From a virus, in IMG/VR virus record IMGVR_UViG_3300036390_000003, positions 1-38,373 of that record: a stretch of DNA of 38,373 nucleotides; one strand, given 5' to 3'. The notes under the pieces are model-generated. The model saw only the letters and a program-made list of their open reading frames with translations. It made no database searches and was not told the origin of the DNA. Below, piece after piece: positions 5,096 through 14,156 of the stretch (the first letter of the stretch is position 1; each line of letters opens with the position of its first letter). Position numbers and translations under genes: made by a program.

Positions 5096-5364
5096 GCAAT
5101 CCAACGATCCTCATCGTGACGGGCGTGTTGCCGGATGATCCCGCGATCACCCGCCAATACTTCGAATGGATGATCGAGGATCTCAACCGCGAGGCCTCCC
5201 GCATGGGCTGGGAGGGCGTGGACTTCATCAAATACGGCCTGGCCGGCGGATGGGCTCTGGTCGAGGGAAAGCCCGGCACCCGGCCGGCCTCCCTGGAGCG
5301 GCTTACGGCATTTCGAGACGAGGAGCGGCGACGCCGCGAAGAGGAAGAAAGGCAGGTGGCGTGA
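5092..5364 (+). CDS. Hypothetical early protein
   Basis: A 90-residue soluble protein, mixed alpha/beta in appearance, with a strand-like ILIVTGV near the start, aromatic residues around position 25-55 and a C-terminal helix of almost only Arg and Glu (about residues 72-88). No family recognised. It starts in an ATGA overlap and its stop shares one base with the next ATG (TGATG). It lies directly upstream of the winged-helix regulator, so the two are probably made together. Confidence 0.65.
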   Translation: MSNPTILIVTGVLPDDPAITRQYFEWMIEDLNREASRMGWEGVDFIKYGLAGGWALVEGKPGTRPASLERLTAFRDEERRRREEEERQVA

Positions 5365-6212
5365 TGGCGTTTGAAGAGGTTGATGTGATTGAGAACGTGG
5401 CTGCAGCGACCAAAAGCGGCATCTCTGCCGGCCTGGTGAAAATGCGGTCTGCTCCGGCGAAGCTGCGCCTGACAGTCCGCGACACGGTCTTCGCCGATCT
5501 GGGTTATACGCTCGACGATCGCTTCGTTCTGCTGCTCGGTAAGGGCGAGGATCACGGCATCATCCGTTTGCGCAAAGACAAGTCTGGTAAGATCAAGCCA
5601 ACCGAGCGCAACTTTGTCGGCGGCGTCCGTGGCGTTCAGATCAGTCTCGGCGTTCGTGCTGAGTTCGTCGACCAGGCGCAGAAGGCTACTCCCTGCCAGT
5701 TCGAAAAGGTGGACCTGACAACGGTCGAAATCATTCTGCCTCCCTGGGCAGACGAAACTCGGCCTGGGAAAACGGCGAGGATTGCTTCCAAGCCTCCCGC
5801 CATTGTCGCCGCGGAGACAGAGCAGGCTCGGAAGGAACAGGAAGAAGCGGAAGCGCGCGAGCGCCGGCGCCAGGCCGAGCTCACCGAAGTCGCCGAGGAA
5901 GCCGCACGGCAGACCCGGCAAGCACTGCGAGGCAAGCATCGGGAGTTCCGCGAAACGCTTCGCCTCACGGCGACCGAGACCGGCGTCCTCGATGTCCTGG
6001 TCGCCAATGCCGGGCGGCTGGTGAGCAAGGAAAACATTCATCAGCTGGTTTGGGGCATGGCCGACGAGATGCCCGACATCAAGATCGTCGACGTCATCAT
6101 CTGCAAAATCCGGCCAAAGCTACCGATCAGCGTCTCACTTAAGACCATCCACGGCCAGGGCTACAAGCTCACCGGCTCGACTGCCGACCTTCTTGAGGGA
6201 GCGGCGGCATGA
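5364..6212 (+). CDS. OmpR/PhoB-type winged-helix DNA-binding protein without receiver
   Basis: A 282-residue protein with three parts. Residues 27-125 form a compact domain rich in strands that I do not recognise. Residues 150-195 are a charged coiled-coil-like helix of Glu, Arg and Ala. Residues 198-269 match the C-terminal effector domain of OmpR/PhoB regulators: LTATETGVLDVLVANAGRLV, then SKENIHQLVWG, a recognition helix around VDVIICKIRPKL and the wing ending in IHGQGYKL. There is no phosphoacceptor receiver domain. This class binds direct repeats, often with an 11-bp period, which is notable because an array of short direct repeats lies at 13271-13510. It is a good candidate for activator of late genes or initiator of replication; the role is inference. 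Confidence 0.82.
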   Translation: MAFEEVDVIENVAAATKSGISAGLVKMRSAPAKLRLTVRDTVFADLGYTLDDRFVLLLGKGEDHGIIRLRKDKSGKIKPTERNFVGGVRGVQISLGVRAEFVDQAQKATPCQFEKVDLTTVEIILPPWADETRPGKTARIASKPPAIVAAETEQARKEQEEAEARERRRQAELTEVAEEAARQTRQALRGKHREFRETLRLTATETGVLDVLVANAGRLVSKENIHQLVWGMADEMPDIKIVDVIICKIRPKLPISVSLKTIHGQGYKLTGSTADLLEGAAA

Positions 6213-7406: not shown

Positions 7407-7652
7407 ATGTCGAAACGGACCTATCGCAAGCCAGCAGTGGCCGAGCTCGCGCGCATCGAGGCCAAGCGCCTCGAGCTCAAGATCTCCCATGAGGATCTCT
7501 ACCTCGCCGCCGGCATCACGCGGGCGACCTATTACGCCATGCGCAGCGACCAGGTCGCCTTCCCCCGGAACCTGCAGGCCCTTCGCTACGGCTTGCGCAC
7601 CGTCGAGCAGCGCCTGCGCAATGCCGACCGGATCCTCGAGGGCCAGTCATGA
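7407..7652 (+). CDS. Small HTH protein
   Basis: An 81-residue basic protein. Residues 25-50 form a helix-turn-helix of the Cro/XRE kind (SHEDLYLAAGITRATYYAMR), followed by a helix that resembles the C-terminal part of such regulators. It is the first gene after the twin hairpins, with GGAAAGAAG just before the ATG, so it probably heads a second early operon. Its stop overlaps the next start by four bases. Confidence 0.7.
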   Translation: MSKRTYRKPAVAELARIEAKRLELKISHEDLYLAAGITRATYYAMRSDQVAFPRNLQALRYGLRTVEQRLRNADRILEGQS

Positions 7653-7939
7653 GCCTGGAGCGCACATCAGGAGACAAGGCGAAGGCGGCGGCGCGCATTG
7701 CATTGAACGGGATCCGGGCGGCCGTCGCCGCCTCGCCGATCCGGCCGGCCGATCGGCGCGCGGCCGAGCTCTACCTGCTGGTCACCACCTGCAACGTCAA
7801 CCAGGTGCTCGCGGCCGCCGTCGCCGGCTGCACCAAACAGAACGTGTCGAAACTGCTCGCCGCCGCCGAGGACCGGCGCGAGGCCGAAGACTTCGACCGC
7901 GCCATCAGCGCGCTTGAGCGCTCGATCCTGGGAGAGTGA
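7649..7939 (+). CDS. Small helical protein with possible HTH
   Basis: A 96-residue, nearly all-helical protein. Residues 45-72 (VNQVLAAAVAGCTKQNVSKLLAAAED) fit a helix-turn-helix, and the following REAEDFDRAISALE helix recalls the end of small DnaA-C-like proteins from rhizobial phages. That resemblance is weak. It starts in an ATGA overlap with the previous HTH gene and is followed after one base by the methyltransferase gene. Confidence 0.6.
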   Translation: MSLERTSGDKAKAAARIALNGIRAAVAASPIRPADRRAAELYLLVTTCNVNQVLAAAVAGCTKQNVSKLLAAAEDRREAEDFDRAISALERSILGE

Positions 7940-8660: not shown

Positions 8661-8875
8661 GCGACACCTTTGCCGACAAAGTTGCTCAGATGATGGATGA
8701 CGAGGTCAAGCGCTTCGCCACCTGGTGCGCGAAGATCTGGACCATCAAGGCAGCCGATCGGGCGAAGAACGCCGACCTGGCCGAGCTCTCCGATGACTAC
8801 ATCAAGGGCTACAACACGGCCCTCGAGCAAGTCCGCGACATCTTTCAGACCTGGCTCGACGAGGGCGCACCATGA
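8657..8875 (+). CDS. Small hypothetical protein
   Basis: A 72-residue acidic helical protein. It begins with GTG in a GTGA overlap with the methyltransferase stop and ends in an ATGA overlap with the primase gene; this double coupling supports it. One cysteine and several Trp and Tyr residues are present. No domain recognised. Confidence 0.65.
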   Translation: MSDTFADKVAQMMDDEVKRFATWCAKIWTIKAADRAKNADLAELSDDYIKGYNTALEQVRDIFQTWLDEGAP

Positions 8876-9951
8876 GCCGGTTTTCCGTCGCCAAGGATCG
8901 TGTCGTCACGGATCTCGAGAGCATCGTCGAGGAGCTGCTGCAGGCCTCGCGCCGCCATCTCAAGGGCGGCACCTGGAACGTGCGCAATCCCTACCGGGCA
9001 AAGTCCAAGGAAAGCCAGATGGTGATCTGGACGCGCGGCGATCGGCGCGGTGCCTGGAAGGATTTCGTGTCGGGCGAGACGGGCGATGCGATCGACCTGG
9101 TCGCCTTCGCGCTGACCGGCATCGTCTCGGCCGACAGCCGCATGACGGCGATCGCCTGGATCGAGGATCGCTATGGCCTGAAAAGCATGGATCCGGCGAC
9201 ACGAGAAAAGGCCGCGGCCGAGGCCAAAAGCCGCCGGCTTGCCGCCCAGGCGCGCGACGACAAGCGCCGCACGGCCGCGCGCGATCGCTCGCGCCGGTTC
9301 TTCTATTCCTGCCAGGAGAAGATCGAGGGCACGGCCGTCGACGTCTATCTGGCAAGCCGCGGGATCAAGCTTGCGAAGGTGCCGAATCTGGGCCGCTCGC
9401 TGCGCTTTCATCCGGCCTGCGAATACTGGCGGGAGGAAGCGCGGCCGCGCTTCGAGGCCATGATCGCCGCCATGGTCGGCGCATCGGGCAAGCCCGGCGC
9501 GAACCATTATACCTTCCTCGCCCCTGGCGGCCACGGCAAGGCCCCGGTCGAGAAGGCGAAAATGATGTTTCCGGAAACGTCCGGGCTCGTCATCCGCCTC
9601 ACCAACGGCCCTTCCGGCCTGTCGCCGGAGCAGGCGGCCGAGGCCGGCACCAAGGGGCCTGTTGGTATTACCGAGGGCATCGAGGACGCGCTCACGGCCG
9701 CCATGGCCGAGCCGGCGCTCAGAATGTGGGCCGCCGGCTCTCTGTCAGGGCTTCTGACCGTGCCGGACCATGCGGCGATCTCCTCCTTCATCGTCTTCAA
9801 GGACAACGACTGGGGCAAACCCCAGGCGACCGCGCTCTTCAACCGCGCGATCGCCAGACTGAAAGGCTTCGGGAAGCCGGTGGAAGTGATCGCGGTGCCG
9901 GCCGCCTGGGGAAAGGACCTCAACGACGCGATCAATTCAGGAGAATGGTGA
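8872..9951 (+). CDS. Phage primase-like protein with Toprim domain
   Basis: A 359-residue protein that probably makes primers for phage DNA replication. The N-terminal region (about 33-80, ending WKDFVSGETGDAIDLVAFA) resembles the part of bacterial primases next to the zinc finger, though no CHC2 cysteines are present. Residues 105-145 are a highly charged helical linker. The Toprim domain lies at about 262-345, with the conserved Glu268 in GITEGIEDAL and the acidic pair Asp311 and Asp313 in FKDND. The gene overlaps its upstream neighbour by four bases, shares one base with the next start, and lies two genes before the helicase. Confidence 0.85.
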   Translation: MSRFSVAKDRVVTDLESIVEELLQASRRHLKGGTWNVRNPYRAKSKESQMVIWTRGDRRGAWKDFVSGETGDAIDLVAFALTGIVSADSRMTAIAWIEDRYGLKSMDPATREKAAAEAKSRRLAAQARDDKRRTAARDRSRRFFYSCQEKIEGTAVDVYLASRGIKLAKVPNLGRSLRFHPACEYWREEARPRFEAMIAAMVGASGKPGANHYTFLAPGGHGKAPVEKAKMMFPETSGLVIRLTNGPSGLSPEQAAEAGTKGPVGITEGIEDALTAAMAEPALRMWAAGSLSGLLTVPDHAAISSFIVFKDNDWGKPQATALFNRAIARLKGFGKPVEVIAVPAAWGKDLNDAINSGEW

Positions 9952-11236: not shown

Positions 11237-11254
11237 CAGGGGATGAAAAAAAAT

Positions 11255-13114
11255 ATGGTCAGCGAACACACAAGCGGCGGGACACAGAAACTCGCGGGCC
11301 TGATCGCCCAGGGGCATAACCGCGTCCGGCTGGCTGAAAAACGGCGAGCCGCGCCCTATCCGCTCCCCGGTCAGAGCCTCGAGGGGATTGCGCCTGGCGA
11401 GTGGCGCGAGCATGGCCAGCTCGACGCGACGGGCTATCTGCCGGCCAATTGCCCCGTGCGGCCGCTCGGCTATGACGGGGAAAACTTCTTCTTCGAAGAC
11501 ACGATGGGCCAGGTGTTCAACACCGGCGACGGCGCGCTCGGCGTCGAGCGGATCCAGAAGCTGTTTGCCGGCCACGAGGATTTTCTCTACTGGGCCTGGC
11601 CGGCGAAGGAGCCGAAGAAGATGCGGGTCGATCCGAGTTTCAAGGCCGAGCGGGTGCGGCGCGATCTCTTTTCCGCCTGCCGCGAGCGCGGGGCCTGGAC
11701 GATGACGGACATGGTGCGCGGCCGTGGCGCCTGGCGCACCGCGCAAGGGAAACTCATCCTGCATTGCGGCGATCATCTCTGGGTCGATGGCGACATCGAC
11801 GACACGGGCGAGCGCGACGGCTATTTCTACGCCCGCCGGCCGCCGAGCCTGGCGCCCTGGGCGCATCCGGTCGAGGACCAGGACAACCCCGTCCCCGAGA
11901 TCTTCAAGATCCTTCGCACCTGGAATTTCGAGCGTGGGGATCTCGACGCGATGATCCTGCTCGGCTGGATCGGGATCGCTATGCTCGGCGGCGCGCTCGA
12001 CTGGCGCCCGTCGATCTTCATCACCGGCGACGCCGGCACGGGCAAATCGGAGCTGATCGGCCGACATGGCCTCTTTCGCGCCATCCTCGGCCGCATGATG
12101 ATCTCGACGACGAACGCGAGCGAGGCCGGTCTCTATCAGCTGGTCGGTCATGACAGCCTGCCGATCGCCATCGACGAGATGGAAGGCGACGAGGCCCCCG
12201 AGCAGACGCAGAAAATCATCAAGATGGCGCGCGACGCGGCGAGCGGTTCGGTCAGGATCCGCGGCGGCCAGAACCACAAGGGCGTGGAATTCGAGGCGCA
12301 GTCGAGCTTCCTGTTTTCCGGCATCAACCCGCCGCCCCTGCCCCCGGCCTCGCTGACCCGTATGGCGATCATCCAGCTCCGGCCGCTCAAGGTGACCAGC
12401 AACAAGGCCCCGACGATGAAGGCGGCCGAGACTGTGGGCCCAAGGATCCTGCGCATCCTTTCCGATCGGTGGGATGATCTCGATTACCGCCTCGACGACT
12501 ATTACGCGATCCTGCGCGAGGCCGGGCACAGCAGCCGCGGCCAGAAGACATTCGGCGCGTTCCTGGCCATGGCCGACGTGATGATCGGCGATCGCGGCCT
12601 GCGCGAGCTCGGCCTGCCCTGCGACGAGCGGGCCCAGTGGGGTGCGTTGCTGCGGCCGCAGGATCTGCAAGAGCTCGAGGGCGCGGAGCCCGCCTGGAAG
12701 CAGGCCCTGGACGCGATCATGACCAGCCAGATCGAGGCGTTCAGTGGCGGCCAGCGGCGCACGGTCGCCCAGGAGATCGCCCGGATCAAGCCGAGCATGC
12801 CCGACGAGGAGATCAAGGAGGCCCGCAGCAAGCTTGCCGCGGCGGATCTTGGCATCATGGGCACGGATGACGATCCAATCCTCTGCATACCCAATGCCAG
12901 CCGTGTGATCGGCAAGGCGCTGCTCGACACGCCTTTCGGTGCCCGCAATGGCAACGGACCTTGGAAGTTCGCCCTTCGACGAGGGCCGCCCGAAGTCATC
13001 CTGCAGCCGGAGCAGGTCAAGCAGGGCATGACCGACAACAGGGTCAGCGTCGCCGGCCGGCAGACGCGCTGCATCTTCGTCAACCTCAAGGCCTATCGCG
13101 AATGGACAGCCTGA
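11255..13114 (+). CDS. Replicative helicase, P-loop ATPase
   Basis: A 619-residue protein that probably unwinds phage DNA. In numbering from 11255, Walker A is GDAGTGKS at about 258-265 and Walker B is PIAIDE at about 303-308; a later stretch, PPASLTRMAIIQL, could carry the arginine finger. This order fits hexameric D5/P4-like or related phage helicases. The N-terminal 200 residues lack a recognisable primase motif. An ATG at 11243 is in frame but lies directly on the AGGGG ribosome site, so 11255, eleven to twelve bases beyond it, is preferred. The gene is followed by the repeat array at 13270-13510. Confidence 0.8.
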   Translation: MVSEHTSGGTQKLAGLIAQGHNRVRLAEKRRAAPYPLPGQSLEGIAPGEWREHGQLDATGYLPANCPVRPLGYDGENFFFEDTMGQVFNTGDGALGVERIQKLFAGHEDFLYWAWPAKEPKKMRVDPSFKAERVRRDLFSACRERGAWTMTDMVRGRGAWRTAQGKLILHCGDHLWVDGDIDDTGERDGYFYARRPPSLAPWAHPVEDQDNPVPEIFKILRTWNFERGDLDAMILLGWIGIAMLGGALDWRPSIFITGDAGTGKSELIGRHGLFRAILGRMMISTTNASEAGLYQLVGHDSLPIAIDEMEGDEAPEQTQKIIKMARDAASGSVRIRGGQNHKGVEFEAQSSFLFSGINPPPLPPASLTRMAIIQLRPLKVTSNKAPTMKAAETVGPRILRILSDRWDDLDYRLDDYYAILREAGHSSRGQKTFGAFLAMADVMIGDRGLRELGLPCDERAQWGALLRPQDLQELEGAEPAWKQALDAIMTSQIEAFSGGQRRTVAQEIARIKPSMPDEEIKEARSKLAAADLGIMGTDDDPILCIPNASRVIGKALLDTPFGARNGNGPWKFALRRGPPEVILQPEQVKQGMTDNRVSVAGRQTRCIFVNLKAYREWTA

Positions 13115-13269
13115 CATGAACGCAACTTACACGAGCCGAGGACCGCCACTTTGCGCGCTTTGGCGGCCGAGAACCCACACCCTGACCCTTCGCGCTGCGC
13201 GGAACCGCGTGGTTGACGTTTTGCGGCCTGGTGTAGGGTTTACCCATGGTCGCAAAGCCGGTGCGGTGT

Positions 13270-13510
13270 CTGTCTATTTGTCTAGGGAAGTGTCTAGGAC
13301 GAGGGGCAAGGCAAGTGACTGTAAACCTTCAACAAATCGCCCTCCCTAGACAAATAGACAGTTAGACAGGCTAAAGCCTCACATATGCACAGGCATGCGC
13401 ACGTATACGAGGAACATCACTGTCTAATTGTCTAGTTGTCTAAATTCATATGTAAGTGACTGATATATCTAGAGCTTTTCATTAGACAGTCGTTAGACAG
13501 TGCCTAGACA
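13270..13510. repeat. Array of twelve TGTCTA/TAGACA hexamers in four alternating triads
   Basis: TGTCTA occurs at 13271, 13279 and 13291; TAGACA at 13347, 13355 and 13363; TGTCTA at 13421, 13429 and 13437; TAGACA at 13483, 13494 and 13505. Thus three forward, three reverse, three forward, three reverse. Periods are 8 and 12, 8 and 8, 8 and 8, then 11 and 11 bases. The first two triads form a perfect 19-bp inverted repeat (13270-13288 with 13343-13361). The stretch 13434-13482 is AT-rich. The whole gap 13115-13538 has no convincing gene. The array resembles iterons of a replication origin or a multi-site operator in front of the late genes. Confidence 0.85.
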
Positions 13511-13538
13511 GTTTCAAGCCGGAGCGAGGATTTAAATA

Positions 13539-14156
13539 TTGGCGAACGGGTCGGAAAAGGATTTCCAGGAGCGCGCCGGCGGCGGTTCCGGCGAGGCCCC
13601 AAGCGGCGGGTTCGACTGGCGCTCGGACGCCGAGGCCAGCCTCGAGCGGCATGATCCGGGCAAGGCCGAGCGCCGACGCGGACGGCCGAAGGGCTCCGGC
13701 AACCGCAAGACGGCCGCCTTCGCGGACTGGTACCAGGAGAAGGGCTTCAAGGATCCGCTCGAGGCGCAGGCCGAGTTCCTGTCGGCCGATCCCGTGGCGC
13801 TGCAGGCATGGTTCGCCGAGCATGAGCGGACGCTCAAGGCGATCGGCAAGGCGACGGGGCTGGCGGTCCCTGCCCTGGTCGACATCGTGAAGGAGCAGAT
13901 GGCCTGCGCCCGGGATCTCGCCCCCTACCTGCATGGCAAGGCCAAGGTGCGCGAGGACGATCCTGACCAGCGGCTGCCGATCCTGGTGCTCAACCTCGGC
14001 ACCAACCAGCTCGACCAGGCGCAGCAGATCGCCCAGGCGAAGGGCTTGTCGGTCGGTCAGCCGCTCGTGATCGATGCCAGCAAAATCAACGGGTTAGCAG
14101 TCGAACCGGCGGAAAGTCTCACGACGAAAAGTCTCACGAAGGACAAAGGCGAGTGA
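13539..14156 (+). CDS. terS: Small terminase subunit
   Basis: A 205-residue protein placed directly before the large terminase. It has a GRPKGSGNRKTAAF segment near residue 48, a DNA-binding lead-in common in small terminases, then helices (about 60-135) for oligomerisation, including a PYLHGKAKV segment typical of the family. The start is TTG at 13539, supported by GAGGA eight bases upstream; there is no ATG nearby. The first 45 residues are Gly- and Asp-rich and probably disordered. It is the first late gene after the TAGACA array. It would recognise the packaging site on phage DNA. Confidence 0.8.
   Translation: MANGSEKDFQERAGGGSGEAPSGGFDWRSDAEASLERHDPGKAERRRGRPKGSGNRKTAAFADWYQEKGFKDPLEAQAEFLSADPVALQAWFAEHERTLKAIGKATGLAVPALVDIVKEQMACARDLAPYLHGKAKVREDDPDQRLPILVLNLGTNQLDQAQQIAQAKGLSVGQPLVIDASKINGLAVEPAESLTTKSLTKDKGE

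Follow-up and report, generated by a model that had tools for sequence, protein, structure and literature searches.

A twelve-hexamer array downstream of a helicase gene is a probable replication origin of a temperate podovirus-like phage

The window, that is the whole stretch of DNA that we analysed, is a 38,373-bp virus record with an integrase, a repressor, replication genes and T7-like structural genes, and it represents a temperate, podovirus-like phage. An array of short repeats lies between its helicase gene and a putative terS gene. The features of the replication module, the array and its neighbour are as follows.

7649 to 7939, plus strand: 96-aa protein with a predicted DnaA domain IV fold, kept in most array-bearing relatives
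8872 to 9951, plus strand: Toprim-domain primase (Toprim_3, DUF7146), same replication module
11243 to 13114, plus strand: initiator helicase, 623 aa, with a Walker A/B AAA+ core, weakly similar to DUF927; proposed to read the array
13037 to 13087, plus strand: helicase residues 599 to 615 (NRVSVAGRQTRCIFVNL), C-terminal motif
13046 to 13048, plus strand: helicase residue 602, which co-varies with the repeated word
13061 to 13063, plus strand: helicase residue 607, which co-varies with the repeated word
13271 to 13296, plus strand: triad A, TGTCTA at 13271, 13279 and 13291 (steps of 8 and 12); position and spacing kept in relatives
13347 to 13368, minus strand: triad B, minus-strand TGTCTA at 13347, 13355 and 13363 (steps of 8 and 8)
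13369 to 13420, no strand: B-C spacer, 52 bp, with a 17-bp alternating purine-pyrimidine run
13421 to 13442, plus strand: triad C, TGTCTA at 13421, 13429 and 13437 (steps of 8 and 8)
13443 to 13482, no strand: C-D spacer, AT-rich (28% GC), proposed melting element
13483 to 13510, minus strand: triad D, minus-strand TGTCTA at 13483, 13494 and 13505 (steps of 11 and 11)
13539 to 14156, plus strand: putative terS, starting 29 bp after the array

The hexamer TGTCTA occurs 16 times on the two strands of the window, compared with a mean of 2.75 and a maximum of 7 in shuffled sequences, and 12 of these copies fall within positions 13271 to 13510. At the background rate of four sites in 38.1 kb, chance could not plausibly place twelve sites within 240 bp. 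Their positions and steps bear out the alternating order that an earlier note on this DNA had described (three forward, three reverse, three forward, three reverse). The perfect 19-bp inverted repeat it had seen in triads A and B is likewise real (13270 to 13288 and 13343 to 13361), and it had correctly placed an AT-rich stretch near 13434 to 13482, where the C-D spacer contrasts with flanks of 66 to 68% GC. Two further regularities had escaped that note. With spacers of 50, 52 and 40 bp between successive triads, the whole layout amounts to two copies of a single unit, a triad followed by 40 to 50 bp and an inverted triad, and the alternating purine-pyrimidine run in the B-C spacer was matched in none of 5,000 shuffles (mean run, 6.0 bp). 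Because the triads are inverted, a single strand of the array folds stably (z = −5.2). The array had no match in Rfam, nor to phages and plasmids by BLASTN.

We scanned viral contigs for a single triad, defined as three TGTCTA copies separated by two bases each, and found this pattern in 52 contigs, whereas by our own estimate about one would be expected by chance. Many contigs contained the complete quartet with near-identical spacings (for example, 8, 11, 46, 8, 8, 58, 8, 8, 46, 11 and 11 in L020), and many had twelve exact copies; the layout is seen again in dozens of phages. The earlier note had proposed a search of related prophages for the same triads, and Rhizobiales prophages with relatives of the helicase do hold the array, with the spacing grammar kept and the word varied. 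In most relatives the B-C spacer measures 50 to 53 bp and has purine-pyrimidine runs of mostly 12 to 30 bp. This alternating centre, which may be a flexible or supercoil-responsive joint, persists through word changes in the window's group and is absent from group 2. The C-D spacer has a GC content of 12 to 35% in those relatives in which it is resolved.

Words at helicase loci include TAGACA (TGTCTA read on the other strand), GGGACA, GAGACA, GGTACA, GGTTACA, GGTTATG, GTTCCA, TGCAAC, GTAACG and CCTAACG, among others. TAGACA is kept in the very distant relatives L234 (3832 to 4055), L009 and L026, at helicase identities down to 40%, suggesting that some words are stable or recurrent. In two further families, whose terminases are 25 to 30% identical, the arrays have longer central spacers and lie 1.1 to 2.5 kb upstream of TerL; here the word varies between phages (TGTCTA, TGTCTT, TGTCAT, TGTAAT, AACGTA, TGGATA), yet all copies within one phage agree. 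Vibrio phage VA-RY-3 and the gut phage record MT835534 have similar arrays built from other words (AGGATA and AGAACC, respectively), and Cronobacter phage Ss1 has a weaker one (ATCCCC). The GC skew minimum of Ss1 falls in its array; elsewhere GC skew is confounded by gene direction. MT835534 (L070) also has a short CCGCGA tandem with 8-bp steps at about 568 to 600, separate from its AGAACC array.

We searched with a helicase profile in a sample of 397 genomes from the order to which Rhizobium straminoryzae belongs, as well as in the wider class. The helicase was present in 22 of the 397 genomes and in a few more from the class. Inspection of the 31 loci fetched from the order and the class revealed an array downstream of the helicase at 26 loci and none at the other five, while a strict array detector was positive for 19 of the 31 real loci and for none of 31 shuffled loci. 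The array begins 156 bp past the helicase stop codon in the window, within 5 bp of it in L311 and L312, about 100 bp from it in L316 and up to about 2.6 kb from it in L305 and L308. A position directly 3′ of the initiator helicase gene is characteristic of iteron origins of the SaPI/PICI type. In four prophages (L311, L312, L316 and L318), no more than about 100 bp separate the stop codon of a related helicase from the start of the array, and the window-type large terminase (TerL) is absent; the terminase of L311 is gpA-type (GpA_ATPase, E = 1.8e-54) and that of L318 is HK97-type (TerL_ATPase, E = 4.9e-28). Because the array stays beside the helicase where the window-type terminase is missing, it is linked to the helicase and not to the terminase. 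Phages BcepC6B, Hodr and MEP301 encode a related TerL but no DUF927 or DUF3987 helicase, and no array was found in them.

DUF927 helicases are also encoded by larger phage families that carry this kind of array. In the large lytic families, about 15 kb separate the array from the helicase and the array is close to the terminase, an arrangement that counts against reading it as an origin. The isolates Rollin and RHph_TM3_14A have DUF927 helicases and no clear array, against the prediction of one. Their helicases are without the terminal QxRC motif in which the DUF927 helicases of three group-2 phages end, and the tracking of array presence by this terminus among DUF927 helicases is suggestive only. 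The family matches of the window helicase are weak, with AAA_16 alone for the protein itself (E = 0.006) and a best DUF927 match within its family of E = 0.0095 (L303); a profile comparison with group-2 DUF927 helicases aligned the ATPase core (E = 0.0013, probability 19%).

Candidate readers of the array were compared by asking which protein changes along with the word. TerS, TerL and a phrog_1448-like neighbour do not, and near-identical versions of TerS and of that neighbour occur beside different words. The Trans_reg_C protein encoded in the window is not conserved among array-bearing relatives. Of the two binders suggested by the earlier note, the protein of 5364 to 6212 is missing from most relatives that retain the array, and the helicase is the one supported, since the word co-varies with its residues. 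Among 42 phages, residue 602 is alanine, serine, threonine or valine in 21 of 21 with a T-first word and lysine or arginine in 19 of 19 with a G-first word, although the C-terminal alignment is uncertain for the most distant helicases and canonical word orientation was assigned by hand from the triad order. This residue was the only one of 531 alignment columns that separated the two classes perfectly; inspection of helicase C-termini had prompted the residue test, and the subsequent column scan was unbiased. A tree that left out the helicase C-terminus implies six or more independent changes of the word's first base. Residue 607 is glutamine in all 22 phages with TAGACA, GAGACA or GGTACA and arginine or serine in all seven with GGGACA, which belong to two separate lineages. 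Closely related phages differ in the same manner: L012 (GGGACA, R602, R607) versus its sisters L014 and L006 (TAGACA, T602, Q607), L235 (GAGACA, R602) versus L234 (TAGACA, T602) and L297 (GAGACA, R602) versus L026 (TAGACA, S602). In protein-DNA contacts, glutamine is commonly paired with adenine, and arginine or lysine with guanine.

Partial correlations computed in sliding windows along the helicase singled out no region, the outcome to be expected if no more than one or two residues matter. These tests covered the arrays outside group 2, whose arrays lie far from their helicases. Through its co-variation with residues 602 and 607, the iteron word appears specific to the element's own initiator, and because these residues change with the word, the C-terminal domain of the helicase is the most likely reader of the array.

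We also considered an origin read by the 96-aa protein, with the helicase recruited afterwards, and regard this order of events as improbable. The predicted structure of the protein (pLDDT 94.7) is nearest to DnaA domain IV (Z = 10.9 for 1j1v and 10.8, with the next unrelated fold at 7.7), the protein accompanies the array in most relatives, and some group-2 words (TTATCCA) are similar to DnaA boxes. However, its recognition helix did not correlate significantly with the word once helicase distance was controlled (partial Mantel, r = 0.12, p = 0.11), while helicase distance correlated with the word when the recognition helix was controlled (r = 0.26, p = 0.0004). Moreover, L012 and L014 have the helix core in common and different words, and the protein was not found beside L309, L310 and L313 to L318, most of which have arrays. 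As an observation in its own right, many alphaproteobacterial prophages conserve this stand-alone protein in their replication module (homologues in L010, L014, L041, L299, L307, L312 and others), and Pfam misses it on sequence; a PF08299 search found nothing in these phages and misses the 96-aa protein as well. A DnaA-like HTT signature is still present in its homologues from L311 and L312. L234, L288 and L289, whose arrays have a 9-bp step instead of the 8-bp step, all have KQYVSKAV in the DnaA-domain-IV-like helix.

Short repeated packaging sites near terminase genes are known from lambda cosB and from the CCTAAAG repeats of T7. A cos or pac site, at which TerS would bind the triads and the concatemer would be cleaved within the array or next to it, in the manner of lambda cosB beside terS, would account for the position of the array immediately ahead of terS in most phages of the window type and, in two large lytic families, 1.1 to 2.5 kb upstream of TerL. 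Contig ends are also enriched near the array, with 7 of 35 contigs starting at most 100 bp upstream of the forward triad, but such ends are spread across the array and form another cluster at a G-run element, suggesting assembly breaks. In L311, L312, L316 and L318, which have other packaging genes, the array adjoins the helicase, and the linkage to its own terminase that would mark a cos or pac site is absent; TerS is nearly identical in L136 and L146 despite their different words (TGTCTT and AACGTA); and the TerL relatives BcepC6B, Hodr and MEP301 are without the array. Unlike the lambda and T7 packaging elements, the window-type array stays with the helicase when the terminase is replaced, and because it persists without the window-type terminase, a packaging site is quite unlikely. 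The G-run element (e.g. GGGGGGGAGGGACCGAGGGGGGG) lies in a divergent intergenic region about 480 to 600 bp upstream of TerL in contigs of the TerL-A family (e.g. L077, L090 and L091), many of which begin at it, perhaps through G-quadruplex sequencing dropout.

A late-gene operator, the other function offered in the earlier note, by which a phage regulator would bind the triads and switch on terS and the structural operon, fits the position of the array upstream of terS with no gene inside it and the presence of a Trans_reg_C protein, but is highly unlikely, though conceivable for the window itself, as that protein is missing from most array-bearing relatives, no promoter-like site was found at 12900 to 13700 and the word co-varies with the helicase. 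In the larger lytic families the array is not positioned ahead of the terminase operon, and in group 2 it lies on the far side of a divergent gene, away from that operon.

In SaPI and PICI islands, iterons lie directly downstream of the gene for the Rep initiator helicase (PMC6092414, PMC7581432). SaPI Rep binds them through its C-terminal domain, Rep helicases appear to bind as two hexamers, and SaPIbov1 Rep belongs to the DUF927 family (PMC7581432). The window array, whose twelve sites make up two units of six, fits this scheme. An AT-rich region surrounded by two iteron sets is a constant feature of PICI origins (PMC6092414); in the window, a spacer of this kind, 40 bp long with 28% GC, lies between triads C and D, and the extra triads A and B exceed the SaPI/PICI definition. 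The present array differs from the island origins in that it occurs in autonomous tailed phages, comprises four strictly alternating triads instead of two iteron sets and has a conserved alternating purine-pyrimidine centre, and in that the Toprim primase is encoded by a separate gene. New relative to this type are the conserved centre and the strict 3+3/3+3 arrangement, with its twelve sites and possibly two hexamers. The earlier note knew of no described phage element with this layout; as far as we found, this is true of the exact layout, and the principle is known from the islands. The putative origin of SCCmec Cch2 (AAGTG) also has iterons immediately downstream of a helicase, which is self-loading and whose isolated C-terminal domain binds the iterons; in contrast to the array, it has only three iterons, a Primase_Cterm-type helicase and no triads (PMC7581432). 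Geminivirus iterons resemble the array in being five to six bases long, with a conserved layout and diverse sequences, and their interaction with Rep is specific, but geminiviruses are single-stranded DNA plant viruses with a rolling-circle Rep and unrelated proteins (PMC12548392).

Together, the persistence of the array beside the helicase across unrelated terminases and the co-variation of the word with helicase residues support the origin with iterons that the earlier note had suggested. On this comparative sequence evidence, the array is very probably a phage replication origin of the SaPI/PICI kind, read by its own upstream helicase. We infer that the helicase would bind the twelve hexamers via its C-terminal domain, with residues around 602 and 607 touching the first bases of the word. 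The six sites of each half (A and B, C and D) would assemble one helicase hexamer, the AT-rich C-D spacer would melt, two hexamers would load and replication would start, primed by the Toprim primase of the same module. More tentatively, and with rather more doubt than confidence, the 3+3/3+3 array may be a measuring template that loads exactly two hexamers, and a two-residue code, in which 602 would specify the first base and 607 the one after it, may have enabled repeated word switches that keep origins private from co-resident relatives. Prophage pairs with related helicases and different words reside in one genome in G152 (L294 and L312), G252 (L295 and L311) and G597 (L313 and L318), consistent with the avoidance of cross-talk.

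How initiators of this class read their origins is poorly understood, and the residue-word pairs would provide an initiator helicase recognition code open to direct testing; that the number of sites is fixed at twelve is relevant to the loading of two hexamers.
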